From an uncultured Flavobacteriales bacterium (lineage in GTDB: Bacteria; Bacteroidota; Bacteroidia; Flavobacteriales_D; Sanyastnellaceae), in contig CALKGK010000037.1 of the NCBI GenBank assembly GCA_938085105.1, positions 1-61,374 of the forward strand: a stretch of DNA of 61,374 nt, in the 5' to 3' direction. Both the position numbers and the translations under genes were made by a program. The notes under the pieces are model-generated. The model was given only the letters and a program-made list of their open reading frames with translations, made no database searches and was not told the origin of the DNA. Below are positions 11,597 to 61,374 of this stretch, piece by piece. Within the stretch, counting starts at the first letter, position 1. The number at the start of each line of letters is the position of its first letter.

Positions 11597-11766
11597 GGGC
11601 GACGTAAGTCAATAGCCTCCGGGGCACCTGATTTGGGCGACGTAAGTCAATAGCCTCCGGGGTACCTGATTTAGGCGACGTAAGTCAGTAACTTTCGAAT
11701 AACCTGATTTGGGCGACGTAAGTCAATAACTTCCGGGGAACCTGAGTTGGACGACACTAATCATCT
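11597..11766 (+). repeat. 38-bp-period tandem array built on GGCGACGTAAGTCAATA
   Basis: Core copies lie at 11598-11614, 11636-11652, 11674-11690 (one change) and 11712-11728, with a decayed fifth copy starting near 11749. Every step is exactly 38 bp. The remaining 21 bases of each unit (CCTCCGGGG then ACCTGATTT) are also largely conserved. The array fills the convergent gap between the SulP gene and the ABC-F gene. The same core recurs around the transposase-like gene 10 kb to the right, so this is one dispersed family and not a local slippage product. Confidence 0.95.
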
Positions 11767-19485: not shown

Positions 19486-21590
19486 ATCCCTCGCATGGTC
19501 AATTGAATGCGTTTTCTTTCCGTGTCAACTTCCAAAACCTTGACGCGCACTTCTTGACCAAGACGCACAACGTCAAGCGGGTTGCTTACGAATCGGTCGG
19601 CCAGTTGCGAAAGGTGTACTAAACCATCTTGCTTTATTCCAAGGTCTACAAAGGCACCGAAATGCGTAATATTGCTCACTTTTCCAGGAAGAATCATCCC
19701 AACTTTTAGGTCTTCAATGCCTTGAATGAAATTGGCAAATTCAAACTGTTTGGCTTTTCCCCGAGGGTCACGTCCTGGTCTTTTAAGCTCTTCTAGGATG
19801 TCCAAGAGGGTGGGCATCCCTACAGTATCGCTCAAATAGTTACTCAAGGGAATCTTGTCTAACTCATCAACATTCAGTTGATTCGGGTTAATTTTAGCGT
19901 CTTTCAACATCAGATGGACAAGCTCATACCTTTCTGGGTGAATCCCCGTGTTGTCCAATACTTCATCACCATCGGAAATCCGCAGAAATCCTGCTGCTTG
20001 TTCAAAAGCTTTCGCCCCCAATCCTTTTACCTTCAGTAGTTCTTGACGATCCTGAAAGAGCCCAGAAGATTTTCGGTGTTCAACAATGTTTTTTGCCGTG
20101 GTTTTGGTCAATCCAGATACGTGCTGAAGGAGATGTTCACTGGCTAAATTGAGGTTCACACCAACTCTGTTCACGCAGCGTTCCACCACTTGATTGAGCC
20201 GTTCTTTCAATCGGTTTTGATTCAAATCATGCTGATATTGGCCAACACCAATGGATTTCGGATCTATTTTCACCAATTCCGACAGTGGATCCATCAATCT
20301 TCGGCCAATACTCACAGCGCCTCTTACCGTTACATCGTGTTTTGGAAATTCTTCTCGAGCAATGGCAGAAGCAGAGTAAATACTTGCCCCATCTTCATTC
20401 ACCATGAAAGCCTCAATTTTGTGGTAGCGAAGAAGGTCTTTCACCATTGCCATTGTTTCCCGACCAGCGGTACCGTCTCCAACAGCAATCACTTCAATTT
20501 TATAGGCTTCGATCAGGTTTTCCAGTTTTTTCATGGCTCCTTTACGATCGTTTTTGGGTGGGTGGGGAAACACCGCTTCATTGTGCAACAGTGTTCCTTG
20601 TTCATCCAAACAAACGACTTTGCATCCCGTTCGAAATCCAGGGTCCAATGCCAACACCCTCTTTTGTCCCAAAGGAGAGGCCATGAGCAGTTGCTCCAAG
20701 TTTTCAGCAAAAACATCAATTGATTTTTCTTCAGCCGTTTTGAGGTATTCCTTACGCATTTCCGTTTCAATACTTGGTCGGAGCAACCGAGAATATGCAT
20801 CTGCGCAAGCGAGTGAAATCTGATCAGAGCATGCATTTCTTTGCTTGATGAAAATCTCTTCTAAGAGATCAAGCGCATCTTTTCTATTTGGTGCAATGGA
20901 TACTTTCAAAAAAACATCTCGCTCACCTCTCATGATTGCAAGCAAACGGTAGCCTGGAGTTTTGGAAAGGAGTCCTTCAAACTTGAAAAAGTCGCGATAT
21001 TTTTGACCATCCTCTTCTTTTCCTGTGACTACTTTTGACTTGATCAAAGCAGTTCTATGGAACAAACTCCTCATCCGTTTACGCGCAAAAGCTCGCTCAT
21101 TGATCCATTCCGCCATAATGTGTCGGGCACCTTCTAAAGCTTGGTCGGCATCAAGGAGGTCCCCTTTGACGAAGCGCTCGGCCAGACGAAGAGGGTCGTT
21201 TGGTCCTTCCTTCATTAAAGCTCCGGCAAGAGGCTCAAGTCCCAATTCCCTTGCTGCACTTGCTTTGGTTTTTCTTTTGGGCTTGAAAGGAAGGTAGAAA
21301 TCTTCTAAGGCTTGAAGGTGCTGGAATCCTGCTATTTGGTCTTTTCGTTCAGAAGTGAGCAGGTCTTGATCTGCCAAACTTTTGATGACCGTTTTTTTAC
21401 GGTCTTCGAGTGCGTTCTTCAGCTGTATTTCGTCAATGATCTCTTGGATCTGTAATTCATCCAAACCCGAAGTAGCCTCCTTTCGATAGCGAGCAATGAA
21501 TGGAACGGTTGCACCTTCCTTAAGGAGGTTTTGGATGGTTTGGATTTGATTTTGGGAGAAGGATTTGCGTTTTGACGAAGTGCTGTTCAT
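19482..21590 (-). CDS. tex: RNA-binding transcription accessory protein Tex
   Basis: A 702-residue protein with full Tex architecture: N-terminal helical region (GATVPFIARYRKEATSGLDE), YqgF/RNase H-like fold (ALDPGFRTGCKVVCLDEQG, about 315-450), helix-hairpin-helix repeats (VKGLGAKAFEQAAGFLRI, about 500-560), and a C-terminal S1 domain (GMILPGKVSNITHFGAFVDLG, about 625-700). Tex is the bacterial relative of Spt6 and binds nucleic acids; it affects transcription and tolerance of stress. Start ATG 21590 lies 4 nt after a TATCTTTG box. The promoter region touches one copy of the GGCGACGTAAGTCAATA repeat. Confidence 0.95.
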   Translation of the reverse strand: MNSTSSKRKSFSQNQIQTIQNLLKEGATVPFIARYRKEATSGLDELQIQEIIDEIQLKNALEDRKKTVIKSLADQDLLTSERKDQIAGFQHLQALEDFYLPFKPKRKTKASAARELGLEPLAGALMKEGPNDPLRLAERFVKGDLLDADQALEGARHIMAEWINERAFARKRMRSLFHRTALIKSKVVTGKEEDGQKYRDFFKFEGLLSKTPGYRLLAIMRGERDVFLKVSIAPNRKDALDLLEEIFIKQRNACSDQISLACADAYSRLLRPSIETEMRKEYLKTAEEKSIDVFAENLEQLLMASPLGQKRVLALDPGFRTGCKVVCLDEQGTLLHNEAVFPHPPKNDRKGAMKKLENLIEAYKIEVIAVGDGTAGRETMAMVKDLLRYHKIEAFMVNEDGASIYSASAIAREEFPKHDVTVRGAVSIGRRLMDPLSELVKIDPKSIGVGQYQHDLNQNRLKERLNQVVERCVNRVGVNLNLASEHLLQHVSGLTKTTAKNIVEHRKSSGLFQDRQELLKVKGLGAKAFEQAAGFLRISDGDEVLDNTGIHPERYELVHLMLKDAKINPNQLNVDELDKIPLSNYLSDTVGMPTLLDILEELKRPGRDPRGKAKQFEFANFIQGIEDLKVGMILPGKVSNITHFGAFVDLGIKQDGLVHLSQLADRFVSNPLDVVRLGQEVRVKVLEVDTERKRIQLTMRGI

Positions 21591-21594
21591 ACAG

Positions 21595-21602
21595 CAAAGA
21601 TA
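21595..21602 (-). promoter_or_regulatory. -7 element TATCTTTG placed 4 nt before the tex start
   Basis: Perfect TAnnTTTG with spacer CTGT before ATG 21590, again predicting a leaderless message. The repeat copy at 21617-21633 begins 15 bp upstream of the box, where the -33 contact region would be. Confidence 0.65.
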
Positions 21603-21616
21603 AATTTTGTCTTAGT

Positions 21617-21633
21617 TATTGACTTACGTCGCC
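21617..21633 (-). repeat. Single repeat copy at the 3' end of the transposase-like gene
   Basis: Perfect copy of GGCGACGTAAGTCAATA on the minus strand. The stop codon TAA of the transposase-like gene (21626-21624) is inside it, so the repeat encodes the last residues of the protein. Confidence 0.95.
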
Positions 21634-22493
21634 GCAATTCGTTTGAAGGAAAGCCATGGGTGTATTGTCATTGCTTTCAGCAGTTTTATAAATGGGATTT
21701 TTCGATCAATTTGACCTCTATTTCGATACCTGAAAGCAAGTTCACTGCAATAATAGAACAGGTGTTTCCTTGAAATATGAATATGAGTCTCTTTAATCCA
21801 TTCCCTGATCATTTCTCGGACTTGAAATTTCGACTCACCAGATAGCGAGTCTGCTTCATGTAAATGTTTCAGCCATTGACCACCTAACGCCTTTGAATGG
21901 AGTAGCTTCGTCTTGTCGTCTGCTATTTTTTCAGTTCTATCAGTCCATATAGATTTAATGCGAAATGTTCGATTGAAATGTGTTGAATTCGCTAAGCTTC
22001 CATCTTGTTCAAATTGGATTTCACTATCGCGTCCAAGACTTTGCTCCAAGAGCATTTTTCTTTTCAGATCTTTGCCGGAAGGAATGACATTGAATTGATC
22101 TTCATGAAGTTGATCATTTTCAAATTTAGCACAGCTTTGTTGAACCTTTCTTTTAAAGAACCACGCTGTTTTCTGACATATGGTAAAATTTCGAGATAGT
22201 TCACAGCTGGATAAACCCTCAGGAATGTGGCTGAGGTGATAAACAATTTCAAAAGCTTCATTGAGTGGGAATTTGATTTTATGGAAAAGTGTTCCCGAAG
22301 TTGGAGATTCGTCATAACGGCATTTTAAGCATCGACGATTTAAACGCTTTTTTCCCATTCCAAATTTATGATGAGTACACTTTTTGCAACGATACCCGTT
22401 TTTCCATTTTAGCTCAACTAAAAATTCCAAACATTTTTCGTGATTCGTGAAGAGTCCTTGGGTGAATGTTTTTGTCAAGTCAGAGATGATCAT
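21624..22493 (-). CDS. IS1595-family transposase-like protein with divergent centre
   Basis: A 289-residue protein. The first 110 residues fit the IS1595/ISXO2 N-terminus: a zinc ribbon (YRCKKC at about 35-40 and RRCLKC at about 54-59, then YDESPTSGTLFHKIKFPL) and a helix-turn-helix (LSSCELSRNFTICQKTAWFFK). The C-terminal part (IHISRKHLFYYCSELAFRYRNR) matches the end of the family's catalytic domain. Between them, where family members have a VDE(T/F)YxGG motif and further acidic residues, the sequence from about 120 to 230 shows no clear equivalent, so DDE catalysis may be lost. The gene has a good promoter (TAGTTTTG, 22523-22516) 22 nt before ATG 22493. It may act as a DNA-binding protein for the flanking repeats. 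Confidence 0.75.
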   Translation of the reverse strand: MIISDLTKTFTQGLFTNHEKCLEFLVELKWKNGYRCKKCTHHKFGMGKKRLNRRCLKCRYDESPTSGTLFHKIKFPLNEAFEIVYHLSHIPEGLSSCELSRNFTICQKTAWFFKRKVQQSCAKFENDQLHEDQFNVIPSGKDLKRKMLLEQSLGRDSEIQFEQDGSLANSTHFNRTFRIKSIWTDRTEKIADDKTKLLHSKALGGQWLKHLHEADSLSGESKFQVREMIREWIKETHIHISRKHLFYYCSELAFRYRNRGQIDRKIPFIKLLKAMTIHPWLSFKRIAAT

Positions 22494-22515
22494 TTGATTG
22501 TATTTCAGATGTTTA

Positions 22516-22523
22516 CAAAACTA
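22516..22523 (-). promoter_or_regulatory. -7 element TAGTTTTG for the transposase-like gene
   Basis: Perfect TAnnTTTG, 22 nt before ATG 22493. A host-type promoter inside the element suggests regular expression, unlike many insertion sequences. Confidence 0.55.
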
Positions 22524-22603
22524 ATGAAAGGTGTGGTAGGAGACAGCTTCATCGACAAACTGAACGCGGTCATACACAAAGTTCTTTGGCTTGGGTGCTT
22601 CTT

Positions 22604-22713
22604 GGCGACGTAAATCAATAGAGTGAAAATATTTGAGATCAGGACACTTGGCGACGTAAGTCAATAAGTCTGAAATTTGAACGCACGAGATATTTTGGAG
22701 ACGTAAGTCAATA
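22604..22713 (+). repeat. Three copies of the GGCGACGTAAGTCAATA repeat upstream of the transposase-like gene
   Basis: Copies at 22604-22620 (one change), 22650-22666 (perfect) and 22697-22713 (one change) are spaced 46 and 47 bp. Unlike in the 11.6-kb array, the bases between copies share little similarity with each other. The copies lie between the transposase-like gene and the cyclophilin gene. Confidence 0.95.
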
Positions 22714-22762
22714 GCTAATTAATTCGTCCTAGCTTAAACCTTCCATTCCAATTCCGATTCCT

Positions 22763-22770
22763 TAAATTTG
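22763..22770 (+). promoter_or_regulatory. -7 element TAAATTTG for the cyclophilin gene
   Basis: Perfect TAnnTTTG, 22 nt before ATG 22793; it is 50 bp after the last repeat copy. Confidence 0.55.
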
Positions 22771-22792
22771 TAGGATACAAAACCCAAATAAA

Positions 22793-23227
22793 ATGCTCAC
22801 AGCTGAAATCCAAACAGAAAAAGGAACAATGAAAGTGGAGTTCTTCGAAAAAGATGCTCCTAATACGGTCAAAAACTTCACAGACCTCGCGAAAAAAGGT
22901 TTCTACGATGGACTCACTTTTCACCGAGTTATCCCAAACTTCGTGGTACAAGGTGGTTGTCCCGATGGAACGGGTGCTGGCGGACCAGGTTATAAAATTG
23001 ATTGTGAATTGGATGGTGAGAATCAGTTTCACGACAAAGGTGTTTTAAGTATGGCTCACGCCGGAAGAAACACTGGTGGATCACAATTCTTTATTTGCCA
23101 CAGCAGAGATAACACTGCTCACTTGGACAGAAATCATACTTGCTTCGGAAAAGTGGTTGAAGGATTAGATATTATCGATGACATTCGTCAAGGAGACAAA
23201 ATGATCAAGGTCACTGTCAACGATTAA
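22793..23227 (+). CDS. Cyclophilin-type peptidyl-prolyl cis-trans isomerase
   Basis: A 144-residue single-domain cyclophilin without a signal peptide, therefore cytoplasmic. Active-site landmarks are [13 protein letters not shown] (with the catalytic Arg), [27 protein letters not shown] and [12 protein letters not shown]. It matches the short PpiB-type bacterial enzyme, which speeds proline isomerisation during folding. It has its own -7 box and terminator, so it is monocistronic. Nothing unusual was seen. Confidence 0.93.
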
Positions 23228-40809: not shown

Positions 40810-41361
40810 TTATTCAAAACGTCCTTTGAAAGCAATGTCAGACAGCGGTTTACGGGTTCTCTCGGCCGTTTCTCTTGACCTCAAAGGCTCCTCCAACATT
40901 TCTGGATTTCCTTGGCGACCTAAAGCAATAGCTACCACTGCCTCATAAACCTCAGGAGCATTGCACACCTCTGCCATCTTTTCGGGATCAAAACCACCCA
41001 TTTGATGTAAATAGAGATCCATGGACTGGGCTTGAATTCCGAGTTGACCAACAGCCAAACCAAGTTCATACATCCACGTGGGGTTTTCCCGCTCTTTGTA
41101 TTCGTGACGGGTTCTTCCAAATACCCCCATCAAAACAGGTGCATTTTTCGCCCAAACTTGATTTCCTTCAGCTAATGTGCTGAGTAAAGCATCAAATTCA
41201 TCACTCCCTTTGTGAGCAAAGACAAACCGCCAAGGCTGTGTATTGTTACCGGAAGCAGCCCATCGAGCAGCCTCAAAAAGGGCGTTGAGTTCTTTTTGTG
41301 AGATGGATTCATTGGAAAACGCTCTCGGACTCCATCGTCCTGATATCTCTTTTAAAATCAT
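40810..41361 (-). CDS. Nitroreductase-family flavoprotein
   Basis: About 183 residues. RWSPRAFSNESISQKELN near the start, ARWAASGNNTQPWRFVFA (flavin-binding, with the conserved SxxNxQPW) and the C-terminal VVAIALGRQG are typical of nitroreductase-type FMN enzymes, which reduce nitro compounds or quinones with NAD(P)H. The preferred start is ATG 41361 (MILKEISGRWSPRAF); the frame extends upstream to 41421 with sequence unlike the family. The true substrate is not evident. Confidence 0.85.
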   Translation of the reverse strand: MILKEISGRWSPRAFSNESISQKELNALFEAARWAASGNNTQPWRFVFAHKGSDEFDALLSTLAEGNQVWAKNAPVLMGVFGRTRHEYKERENPTWMYELGLAVGQLGIQAQSMDLYLHQMGGFDPEKMAEVCNAPEVYEAVVAIALGRQGNPEMLEEPLRSRETAERTRKPLSDIAFKGRFE

Positions 41362-58500: not shown

Positions 58501-61374
58501 TGAGCTTTCGAAACCAAATTCTCGTGCTGCTCGATACTTGTTTTCAATTCAAGCTCATTGAGGTCAGCCACCGTTGTATTATCATTCAAATCCAAGGCAG
58601 GGAATTCTGGATCAATTTGCTGGATCAATTCGCTTTCGGTTTCGGCAAGCACGATCAATTCTGGTGTAGCTTTAGGTTCAGCAGAAACATTGACCATCTC
58701 CAAGGCACCTAAACCATCAATCTCAGCTTGATTTTGAGCTTGGAGTTCAGCTATTTCTGCGCTTTCTTCCTCATTCTTTGGTTCGAAATTGGCCAAGAAA
58801 TCTTTGTAATTGCTCAGGAGTTGAATTTGCTCTTTAGCATTCTCATTCGGGAAACTTTCAGCATTGCTCAACTGCAATCGTTTATTCTGAACATTGATGT
58901 TGGTCGCTTTTAAACTCAAAGCTTTGCTCTCTTGGAGTAATTCTAGACTCTCTTTCATCGCTGCATTTTCCCGCAGCAATTGATTCTTTTCGGCTTCGTC
59001 TTCCGAAGCGAGAATTTGTTTTTGATTGGATTTGATGTTTTGAGCAATCATATCCTCTGCATCTCTTGCAGCACTCAATTTTTCAAAGTCCAAATTATCT
59101 TCATTCCGAGCTTGATTGATCTCTTCTGCCAGTTCGGGTTGATATTCTTTCAAGAAAGTTAACGCCTCCGTGGAGTTCATTTGCACCGTATCGGTCTGTT
59201 CCTCAGATTGAGCGATGTCTTCATCCAAAACTGCAATCAATTCATCCATTGCTTTTAATTCTATTGCTACAGATGCTTTTTCTTCGGGGTCGTTCAGCTC
59301 GAGTGCTGACAAAAAGTTGCGCTGTTCAACAAGGCTTGACTTTGTATTTTGAGCCAAGACCAATTCTTTTGCAGGACTCGGTTTTGGGTCATCCTTCAAT
59401 TCCAATTGAGCGGCTTGGTAGTTTGCTTGAATGGTGTTGACCGGTTTTAATTCTATCGACTGGGCATCTGCTTTTTCTCTTATTGCAGTAATTTCATTGA
59501 GCGCCAATGCTTCTTTAAGCGGACCCTCAGCAATGGCTTCCGTTTTGTGATCTCGATCAACTTGTAAAATTGCCAACTGCTCCTTTTCTTGAGCCAATTC
59601 AGTCTCAAAGTTTTGAATTTCATCGGCCACCAAGACCTTCTCATCCGGCTCGGGGTTTTCATTGCTTAGGGATTGGGCCAAGAGAGATTGTTGTCTGGCA
59701 CGAAGGCCTTCCTCGCTTTTCAGATTCAATTGTTGTTTTGCCTTTTCTCCTTGTTCCTCAATGTATTCTAGTTCGCTTTCAAGTTGGAATAATTCTTCGG
59801 CAAGCTGGGCTTTGTCGCGTTGTTTTTTGGCGCTTTCGAGTGCGGTTTTCTTAGAAGTGATCTTGGCTTGAGTTGATCGTTCTTCTTCCTCCAAAGAAAG
59901 GCTTCTATTTTCCAATGACTTCACCTCTCTTTCCGAATTGCTCGCCAATTGACTTAAGTCGCCAATTTTATTTTTCAGCAGATCACTTCCTTCTCTTCTT
60001 CGTTCTTTTTCAGCTTGAAGTACAGCTACCAAAGCGTCCACATCCTCTTCGTTTGAGCTTCGGGCAATCTCTTGTGCGCTTTGTTCCAATGATGCTGCCA
60101 GTGCTTTGGTATCTTCAGCGCTTTGAAGCAGAACTTTGGCTACCTCCATCAAATCGTTGGCCTTGGCCTCTTCCTGTTCAGCTTCATTCACGAGCGCAAT
60201 ATACTCCTCGAAAGTCTCAAAATACGCTTCACCTTTAAGTTGGTCTAGGTCTTGAGCCAGGGTTTGTGCTTTTGCGTTGTTCAGAGCTACCTTTTCTTTG
60301 CTTTCTTGAGCAGCAGCGAGTGCACGATTTGCACGTTGACCATGAGCACGGGCTGTTTGAAGTTGTTCCTCCTTCTCTTGAAGAAGCTCATTTTTGATGG
60401 TAGCTGCATCTTGATCAGCATTCAAACCTGCCAACAAATGTGCATCATTGATATCTCTCTTAGGGTTGGCGATTTCTTTTGCTTGGGCGATGCGTTCTTC
60501 GTTAGCATTCACCTCGAGGCCTGCTTTTTGTCTTAAAACCTCAGCAGAAAGTGCTGCCAAATCTTCATTCAATTCACGATCAAAGAGGTTATTGATGATG
60601 AGTTTTTCTCTCCCATTATCGTCCACCAGTTTGAGCTCTTGTTCCAAGGCAACAGCATGATCGAAAGCGGGCAATTCAATGACTCCTTCATGAATCAAAG
60701 GTTCACCGAGCACTTGAAGGGATAAACGATAAAGTCCGGCCTTTGGAAAAGACAGCACATATCCACCATTAAAGTCGTCGGTTTGTGTTTCAGTGATCAC
60801 CGTGCCGCTCAATTCATCAACAATGGTGATTTTCGCTGCACTTTGGCTGCTGTTCTTTTCGTTCACAAATGATCCTTTGACAAACATCAACTGAACAGGA
60901 ATTCCATCCACCATCACCTTATACACATGCAGTTCTCCTTGACTGCTGTTTCTTCCCGAAGCAAAAAACGCTGTTTGGTGGGCGGAATCGGTTACAAAGA
61001 AGAGATCATCATCGGGTGTGTTTATGGCAAAGTCCAAGTTTTCGGGGCTTGAAAAGCTTTGAGCTGAACCATCGAAAATCGACTTGAAGATGTCATACCC
61101 CCCCATGGAATTGTGTCCTTTCGATGCGAAATAAAAGGTACTTCCATCTGGATGCATGTATGCGAACTCTTCGTCTTCTGGAGTATTGATGGTATTGGGC
61201 AACCTTTTGGGCTCTGAAAAACTTCCATCACCCAAAATATAAGCTTGAAAAATATCAATGCCATTTTCTCCTTTTTCACCGTAGCTCGAGAAGAATACCT
61301 CTGGACTTTCGCCATTCTTATAAAGAACACCTTGGTAGTCCATCTTTTTGTCCATTTTCGAACGCAATTCTTCT
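55596..61374 (-). CDS. Giant envelope protein: PD40 propeller, regulatory-like domain, long coiled coil, three SPOR domains (5' end outside)
   Basis: At least 1925 residues; the frame has no stop or reliable start before the right edge, so the gene continues outside. In order: PD40/WD40-like propeller segments (EVFFSSYGEKGENGIDIFQA, FAYMHPDGSTFYFASKGHNS; about 1-150), a carboxypeptidase-regulatory-like beta-domain (VKGSFVNEKNSSQSAAKITI; about 155-230), then about 1300 residues of Glu/Ala/Lys/Gln-rich coiled coil, and three SPOR-like modules near the end (VYKVQVGAFRKDIPQNLYAQ about 1605, YYTVQVGVYSKQVDPTNLP about 1740, SYRVVFGTFKDKVPSDLARA about 1850). SPOR domains bind denuded peptidoglycan. 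The order resembles PorE of the T9SS (TPR-PD40-CRD-OmpA), with SPOR replacing OmpA. Probably periplasmic and wall-linked; the exact job is inferred. Confidence 0.8.
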   Translation of the reverse strand, partial: EELRSKMDKKMDYQGVLYKNGESPEVFFSSYGEKGENGIDIFQAYILGDGSFSEPKRLPNTINTPEDEEFAYMHPDGSTFYFASKGHNSMGGYDIFKSIFDGSAQSFSSPENLDFAINTPDDDLFFVTDSAHQTAFFASGRNSSQGELHVYKVMVDGIPVQLMFVKGSFVNEKNSSQSAAKITIVDELSGTVITETQTDDFNGGYVLSFPKAGLYRLSLQVLGEPLIHEGVIELPAFDHAVALEQELKLVDDNGREKLIINNLFDRELNEDLAALSAEVLRQKAGLEVNANEERIAQAKEIANPKRDINDAHLLAGLNADQDAATIKNELLQEKEEQLQTARAHGQRANRALAAAQESKEKVALNNAKAQTLAQDLDQLKGEAYFETFEEYIALVNEAEQEEAKANDLMEVAKVLLQSAEDTKALAASLEQSAQEIARSSNEEDVDALVAVLQAEKERRREGSDLLKNKIGDLSQLASNSEREVKSLENRSLSLEEEERSTQAKITSKKTALESAKKQRDKAQLAEELFQLESELEYIEEQGEKAKQQLNLKSEEGLRARQQSLLAQSLSNENPEPDEKVLVADEIQNFETELAQEKEQLAILQVDRDHKTEAIAEGPLKEALALNEITAIREKADAQSIELKPVNTIQANYQAAQLELKDDPKPSPAKELVLAQNTKSSLVEQRNFLSALELNDPEEKASVAIELKAMDELIAVLDEDIAQSEEQTDTVQMNSTEALTFLKEYQPELAEEINQARNEDNLDFEKLSAARDAEDMIAQNIKSNQKQILASEDEAEKNQLLRENAAMKESLELLQESKALSLKATNINVQNKRLQLSNAESFPNENAKEQIQLLSNYKDFLANFEPKNEEESAEIAELQAQNQAEIDGLGALEMVNVSAEPKATPELIVLAETESELIQQIDPEFPALDLNDNTTVADLNELELKTSIEQHENLVSKAQMKMDERVFAIDASTSTEEKERLQLEITRLQSLINRKSQEQLKLIAALDKLPLENETLALSVETENQDETNGNVANENSVSNSDAIGGQDEGTLADATASEEKLDQDAEKQRELELENENTESGSDGNVALALPEDYSSKALADWSELSKEEQFEAAFVNLYETEVQTNSTIQGHSQFDDLSTDVEAAQFDKDLAEMEEKAAEIEVLESEIAQVESRREIKKLDKQIEKAFFDRSAAEIRTSEAMVVVAEQRFTDNEIKIAEEKRAQAPSLENAEWLALKVREKEQEADEAQQLSREILAEAAPEIDEIKQAEMYKRAAILQMNALELQNAALNLLKNSDQVASLDPEQIEQLKSGERIEAEILAENFSSESEETNEELPSMNDGSEDALTPDGNVADDAALNEREAEVLLAVEAEVNNEFPEIEVLAEEMEVTNPNDALLALELPESDRSKISDSEYFTPMLELDKEQLTLVSKRSALVKDRNGAQSAASGIRSEMLRVKQAAEMSTTAAEKDGLNAEFEQLKSEARVVYAQIETLDDEIESVEEEINEMEVAKASFIFDLDTAEILADGSGEDGEEKSEVVAIENTAIRAEISEANAFYYANNNRFEEYDFNFPKVLEAEVFNVVSESPYSEEQPIPINAALPEGIVYKVQVGAFRKDIPQNLYAQFAPVSGEESPSGLTRYAVGLFKAFTSADLAKKEVRSMGYKDAFVVAYKNGVRIPLYEARAESKDKGTETLAENAARSVEATRPEASVETNETVAPAVPSPATANAIPSEMDWSQTTGSYYTVQVGVYSKQVDPTNLPGVNEVMVEQIKEGLFRYTSGKFTRLEEVNTAKEQIRAAGIQDAFVTAYRNGQKVAVSSITPSNDELETETAPEVRADAPSDTISYRVVFGTFKDKVPSDLARAMLSLERKHGVIQLTKGEETTYVSRELNSEEACQEVIKSYQAFGVSVNEIQTLVNGKVGQQ

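Follow-up and report, generated by a model that had tools for sequence, protein, structure and literature searches.

Former IS1595 transposases without catalytic residues, each paired with its own repeat family, in two related Flavobacteriales genomes

The window, i.e. the whole stretch of 61,374 nucleotides analysed here, comes from an uncultured Flavobacteriales bacterium and encodes on its minus strand a catalytically dead IS1595-family protein of 289 amino acids (21627-22493, stop codon TAA at 21624-21626), the "alpha" paralog. We consider it reasonably probable that this protein and its paralogs are former IS1595 transposases that have been retained as sequence-specific binders of repeats and arrays derived from their own terminal inverted repeats (TIRs). 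The catalytic residues are lost, the DNA-binding and C-terminal parts are conserved, the loci are syntenic and each gene is paired with its own repeat. Array sites are conserved, the repeat tips change species by species, and genes and repeats co-occur. The genes thus show the marks of a domesticated transposase, with a fixed position, a kept reading frame, lost catalysis and a kept DNA-binding domain.

The sequence-only reading of this DNA had described the gene as transposase-like and of IS1595 type. The affinity is supported by Pfam matches to Zn_ribbon_IS1595 (E=0.00023) and to the C-terminal part of DDE_Tnp_IS1595 (E=0.011), both below the cut-offs, by a strong hhalign match and by a quick tree. 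Using hhalign, a profile of eight such proteins aligns with ten intact relatives over most of the length with a probability of 100 and an E-value of 9e-65. Thus descent from IS1595 stands; judged from its residues, however, the alpha protein is no longer a working transposase. Residues 14-122 (22128-22454, minus strand) comprise an N-terminal Zn-ribbon (C36, C39, C55, C58) and a helix-turn-helix (HTH) and are the predicted conserved DNA-binding part, with 61-73% identity between orthologs and the four cysteines invariant in 8/8 alignment rows. The adjoining degenerate ex-catalytic region (residues 123-218; 21840-22127, minus strand) is only 17-30% identical between orthologs. A conserved C-terminal segment follows (residues 219-289; 21627-21839, minus strand; 38-46% identity), in which T236, H237, S241, H244, Y248, E251 and R255 are invariant in all eight rows.

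We take the IS1595 catalytic set to be D, D, a third residue and K, following the D-D-H-K subgroup scheme. In the intact relatives D137, D208, H237 and K244 are invariant (10/10). None of the nine full-length paralogs, four in the genome from which the window comes (G000) and five in a sister species of the same genus (G001), has the full set: the first D falls in a gap in 9/9, the second D is present in 4/9, the H in 0/9 and the K in 1/9, and these column counts agree across three alignment modes. No invariant acidic residue is found between residues 63 and 250 (8 rows), and PF12762 gives no match at the cut-off in either genome. The predicted structures point the same way. The model of an intact relative (mean pLDDT 87.3) has a strand at 133-141 carrying D137, two further strands, a helix at 188-198 and a strand at 204-208 carrying D208. 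In the less certain model of the alpha protein (mean pLDDT 74.9) the long first strand is reduced compared to the intact relative, and after the third strand the helix and the strand of the second D are not predicted. A Foldseek comparison of the alpha model with the PDB returned nothing at E 0.001 or better, and in a second structure comparison (VIA) the best hit, the ISCth4 transposase, had a Z of 3.7, which is too low for use. For the intact proteins, no related solved structure was found by sequence at E 0.1.

G000 harbours four full-length paralogs and one C-terminal fragment (epsilon), each as a single copy, and G001 has five full-length paralogs including the complete epsilon gene. All five loci are syntenic between the two species, and most of the flanking proteins that could be matched have an identity of about 54-97% over long stretches. 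For the four ortholog pairs themselves the identity is about 40-51% (tblastn), and the average identities between paralogs are 56% in the N-terminal, 20% in the middle and 39% in the C-terminal part. Within the N-terminal part orthologs (61-73%) are barely closer to each other than paralogs (50-64%). The middle region is near saturation between orthologs; relaxed constraint would give both results likewise. In neutral simulations of the four ortholog pairs a mean of 15.6-17.5 stop codons per gene accumulated, and 0/1000 runs remained free of stops in each pair. The synteny at 5/5 loci, together with the lack of stop-free runs in these simulations, argues that the dead paralogs are kept by selection. 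At contig C35 of G000, the counterpart of the full epsilon gene of G001, an ORF with an Acetyltransf_5 (GNAT) domain is fused in frame to the epsilon C-terminal piece (L216:1219-2043).

The quick tree of 34 rows comprised the nine paralogs, nine sequences from genus g6 and sixteen others, fourteen of them with the first catalytic motif. The nine paralogs form one side of a branch with an SH-aLRT of 100 and are nested among intact IS1595 relatives; the alpha, beta, gamma and delta pairs are recovered with 97, 96, 94 and 92, the last two being under the star level. The tree and the shared losses suggest, most simply, that the D-D-H-K set was lost before the two species split. Both genomes are drafts, of 99 (G000) and about 130 (G001) contigs, and an intact insertion sequence (IS) could be hidden at contig breaks of either.

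The gene is framed by the repeat as the sequence-only reading had proposed, and every copy, including those of a separate array 10 kb away, was located where that reading had placed it. An exact copy on the minus strand lies over the stop codon of the gene (21617-21633), so that the stop sits inside the repeat as GCG ACG TAA; we read this copy as the ex-right TIR. Three plus-strand copies, inverted relative to the gene, follow upstream at 22604-22620 (1 mismatch), 22650-22666 (exact) and 22697-22713 (1 mismatch). The free array (11598-11728, plus strand) consists of four copies starting at 11598, 11636, 11674 and 11712 with a 38-bp period, three exact and one with 1 mismatch, and has a gene for a SulP-type transporter on one side and an ABC-F-type gene on the other, labels which are our reading of the translations. 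Two isolated alpha-like copies are weak: 59947-59963 (minus strand) has 2 mismatches, and 40914-40930 (plus strand) has 3 and may be due to chance. In the window, the alpha 17-mer has 10 matches at up to 3 mismatches compared to 0.05 expected, and 0/100 shuffles reach 10. The whole-genome count, which had been proposed as a check, revealed 25 copies with at most 2 mismatches in the 3.17-Mb draft of G000 and 0 for the reversed pattern, i.e. many free copies beside single-copy genes. The enrichment belongs to the full motif and its clustering, unlike the bare 10-base core, which is not enriched in either genome (73 versus 91 reversed in G000, 100 versus 89 reversed in G001). A scan of 21500-22800 with the sigma-70 consensus only gave 1 promoter-like site versus 3.5 expected.

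Across the two genomes we distinguish five related repeat families, which share an inner core, GCGAC-n-TAA (GAGAC in epsilon), and each have a private tip: GTCAATA in alpha, GCCGATAGC in beta, GCCGGT-n-AT in gamma, ATGGATA in delta and TATATAGC in epsilon. All nine full-length genes (9/9) have their family-specific repeat upstream, with one to four inverted copies close by; the beta gene of G001 has one close upstream copy and, about 2 kb farther away, an array. A repeat copy covers the stop codon in frame in 6/9 of these genes. At the other three, the 3' copy lies within the last codons (gamma of G000) or is lacking (both delta genes). The tip of the copy at the stop codon has drifted in beta of G001. 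Inverted repeat pairs are also found in 9/14 rows of intact type, their right copy being at the stop codon or just past it, and the remaining 5/14 include truncated loci; the repeats are therefore best read as ex-TIRs. The residue following the invariant Gln with which the recognition helix starts is a candidate for the specificity position. The pairings of residue and tip seen are K/GT, E/GCCG, S/ATGG and P/TATATA; these are few cases, and in other clades K is found together with ATGG tips as well.

Beyond the flanks of the genes themselves, two or more copies occur together at 13 places in G000 and at 14 in G001, the latter number including C88, the array that lies some 2 kb away from beta; by eye, two places per genome look like one array halved by contig ends, with the same unit at both. 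Over the stretches fetched we counted 24 alpha, 2 beta, 21 gamma and 17 delta copies in G000 and 6 alpha, 7 beta, 36 gamma, 33 delta and 5 epsilon copies in G001. Copies within an array are all on the same strand; a looser pattern has seven matches at C69, one of them on the opposite strand. In several arrays alpha copies are interspersed with gamma copies, and delta arrays contain delta only. The array periods (34-36, 38, 42-49, 57-60, 66-69, 78-81, 100-104 bp and more) appear stepped, units inside one array not being independent. According to a hand count over 29 rows, in which orthologous sites are entered twice, the tip side of the arrays faces the 3' end of a gene in 16, the 5' end in 6 and no gene in 7. 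A different repeat of 19-20 bp, GCGAAGCGACC-TAAAC, occurs in tandem in G001 (C15, C39, C36, C121; L219, L223, L234, L235) and in G000 (C4; L238); it shares part of the core by letters and was excluded from all counts.

Within the array stretches fetched, beyond which further shared sites may exist, nine contig pairs have arrays beside orthologous genes in both species. Two of the pairs look like halves of one broken array, so that they amount to eight sites, and at least one repeat family is always in common. When the family labels of the eight sites (four alpha/gamma, four delta) are permuted, full agreement has a chance of 1 in 70, although P values for this agreement overstate because tandem copies are not independent. 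Outside the motifs, the spacers show no detectable match in 6/9 pairs and share 12-33 bp in 3/9. Array sites are not all kept, since at least two arrays of G000 are missing at the orthologous G001 sites: the alpha array at 11.6 kb of the window is absent there, and G001 has no family copy at the site that corresponds to the C48 array.

The tips differ between the species at dispersed sites. Setting aside the fragment locus C35 and the stray window copies at 40914 and 59947, and bearing in mind that copies within one array are not independent, the delta tip GGATAGC is found in 13/16 copies in G000 versus 0/33 in G001 and GGATAAG in 0/16 versus 29/33; the gamma tip AAT occurs in 20/21 versus 0/36 and AT[CG]A in 0/21 versus 32/36, while the alpha tip AATAAT is found in 0/23 versus 6/6. 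If catalysis was lost before the split, ordinary DDE transposition by the paralogs cannot account for this species-wise change.

Based on these observations we propose that ancestral IS1595 transposases lost the D-D-H-K set and stayed on as predicted DNA-binding proteins, each of which would recognise a private repeat descended from the TIR of its ancestral element. In this model the N-terminal part would bind its cognate repeat in double-stranded form, subunits may be paired through the C-terminal segment, and the middle may have turned into a spacer. Through the upstream copies each gene might control its own expression (autoregulation). The tandem arrays could act as multivalent platforms, to which the protein probably binds cooperatively, and may thereby influence local transcription or chromosome structure. 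As the catalytic step is gone, binding alone would have to explain the retention of the genes. A bolder version, which is conceivable and in our view rather doubtful, holds that four to five protein-DNA address systems operate in the genus, each orthogonal to the others, as a bacterial counterpart of CENP-B-type satellite chromatin derived from IS1595. Recognition helices and private satellite repeats would then change together genome-wide, much as eukaryote centromere proteins and satellites do.

An ordinary IS is ruled out by the lack of a catalytic set, the fixed synteny and the absence of a target duplication. The homology to the IS1595 domains is there and the catalytic set is not; one inverted copy faces three, and no 8-bp duplication was seen by eye in the window DNA beside any of the three possible left-end pairings, in line with what the sequence-only reading had noted. 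There is one copy of each gene, and 5/5 loci are syntenic, so neither multiple copies nor variable positions are seen. That reading had also named repeats confined to the ends of multi-copy ISs, or related genomes with the gene and no repeats, as observations that would speak against it; free arrays occur elsewhere, and G001 has the repeats as well as the genes. It is unlikely, in our estimate, that the repeats are selfish satellites, i.e. non-autonomous TIR fragments that spread under the active ancestral transposase and now grow and turn over by slippage and recombination, with the dead proteins as repressors or passengers of no use to the cell. The TIR-like look of the repeats, with the inverted pair in 9/14 intact-type rows, the free variation of unit lengths and spacers at orthologous arrays and the existence of species-specific arrays would all suit such an origin. 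However, the reading frames are intact despite the strong neutral expectation of stops, the tips at dispersed sites differ in step, and the repeat family is kept at shared array sites.

We regard it as improbable that the proteins still move short DNA units, non-canonically or with help in trans, as a real counterpart of REP/RAYT that spreads its repeats. Whole units with a shared spacer do recur at different sites within a genome (the 78-81-bp delta units, by eye), and the 11.6-kb array of the window, absent in G001, could be a gain of G000; the absence may also be a loss, and the lack of an invariant acidic residue between residues 63 and 250 (8 rows), the part of the catalytic fold that is not predicted in the model, the lack of an IS1595 domain above the Pfam cut-off in either genome and the missing target duplication at the gene all argue against continued movement. 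To plain decay, in which old IS remnants drift without function, we give slightly less credence still. It would explain the very fast evolution, with 17-30% identity in the middle region, the reduction of epsilon to a fragment in G000 and the lack of a 3' copy at both delta genes, but it fits poorly with full reading frames kept at 4/5 loci in G000 and 5/5 in G001, with Zn-ribbon cysteines invariant in 8/8 rows and with the coordinated tip differences.

The sequence-only reading had compared the locus to REP/RAYT. Single-copy, non-mobile genes with free cognate repeats bear out this logic, and a single fixed gene adjoins cognate repeats that are also dispersed. The comparison fails for the repeats themselves: REP-like hairpins are ruled out, as the folding of six DNA stretches, with z values from 0.62 to 1.08, does not exceed that of shuffled sequences. 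In RNA folding of four stretches one z was -1.37, with 16/200 shuffles folding equally well, and the others ranged from -0.30 to 1.76. Overall that reading is supported in part; the paralogs with separate repeat alphabets, the synteny and the concerted change of the tips were absent from it. TnpAREP proteins are HUH enzymes which process single-stranded palindromic REPs in vitro, as described in PMC8266576. In contrast, the protein here is of DDE/IS1595 type rather than HUH (related to IS200/IS605 TnpA) and has lost its catalytic residues; the repeats here are not palindromes, and there are several paralogs, each with a repeat of its own. The system is thus not a member of REP/RAYT: it differs in the class of its enzyme and in the shape of its repeats, and it no longer has the catalytic set of its own family. 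With IS1595 ISs it shares a homologous Zn-ribbon, HTH and C-terminal segment, and like them it has TIR-like repeats both upstream and at the stop codon; unlike them, it lacks the catalytic set and any sign of mobility, and it has several copies of the left end as well as free arrays.

In eukaryotes, the domesticated transposase CENP-B is devoid of catalytic activity and binds a TIR-like box in tandem arrays. By analogy it appears to be the nearest logical match among domesticated transposases, with an ex-transposase devoid of catalysis and a TIR-like box in tandem arrays in both cases, the binding here being putative. It differs in that it derives from another transposase class, and in that the arrays here are tiny, with 2-8 counted copies, and bacterial. 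Titles and abstract openings, which made up most of the literature covered, yielded no domesticated IS1595 protein with repeats. Here a bacterium seems to have re-used a transposase as a putative repeat-binding protein. If true, this would be a second, unrelated route, starting from a DDE-type enzyme and with the catalytic step plainly gone, and the several paralogs with separate repeat alphabets per genome would make protein-repeat co-evolution directly testable.

In 114 genomes of the family the strict alpha/beta/delta pattern occurs in two, with 24 and 34 matches versus 0 and 0 reversed, and these are the two with this gene clade. A profile of the family scores the nine genes at 338-446 bits and the next genome, which has an intact relative, at 243; weaker or broken matches in ten other genomes are only partly classified. 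The 338 pattern matches in viral contigs include no relative, and the 20 matching plasmid records are all below 60% identity.

In genus g6, nine IS1595 relatives that are likewise catalytically degenerate form a clade of their own (genomes G006 and G025; L113, L114, L119, L120, L125, L055, L096, L130, L054), and 6/9 of them have an inverted pair, identified by shared 11-mers, upstream and at or near the stop codon. A degenerate pattern for this type of repeat matches 26 times in one g6 genome and 15 times in the other (reversed: 1 and 0), and three copies spaced 98-99 bp apart form an array. Several of the g6 copies are located next to transposase fragments where a contig ends, and resemble ordinary IS ends. 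IS1595 relatives without catalytic motifs were further noted in Pollutibacter soli JS81 (L151, L154) and in a Ferruginibacter MAG (L158). L151 and L158 retain the repeat pair; no arrays were found in these two genomes, which have 12 and 10 matches at up to 1 mismatch versus 1 and 3 reversed. Flammeovirga aprica has many related IS1595-type copies with VEVDE, mostly at contig ends (L170-L178, L180-L189), and its element, which is of the same kind, looks like an active IS.

In Cyclobacteriaceae (Belliella, Echinicola, Mongoliibacter, Rhodonellum and others; L179, L190, L193, L194, L196, L199, L201, L203, L205-L208, L210-L212) long ORFs end just past an IS1595-like Zn-ribbon and HTH. The two that were scanned, L203:3474-5393 and L194:3348-5390, contain 7TMR-DISMED2 and 7TMR-DISM_7TM domains; the Zn-ribbon is below the Pfam cut-off in L203, and in L194 it is not found by Pfam and rests on tblastn and the motif. 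These proteins seem to be membrane receptors fused to an exapted transposase DNA-binding domain, which would represent a natural use of the Zn-ribbon-HTH as a regulator module. Together with the g6 clade, the fusions suggest that this DNA-binding domain has been re-used repeatedly in Bacteroidota.
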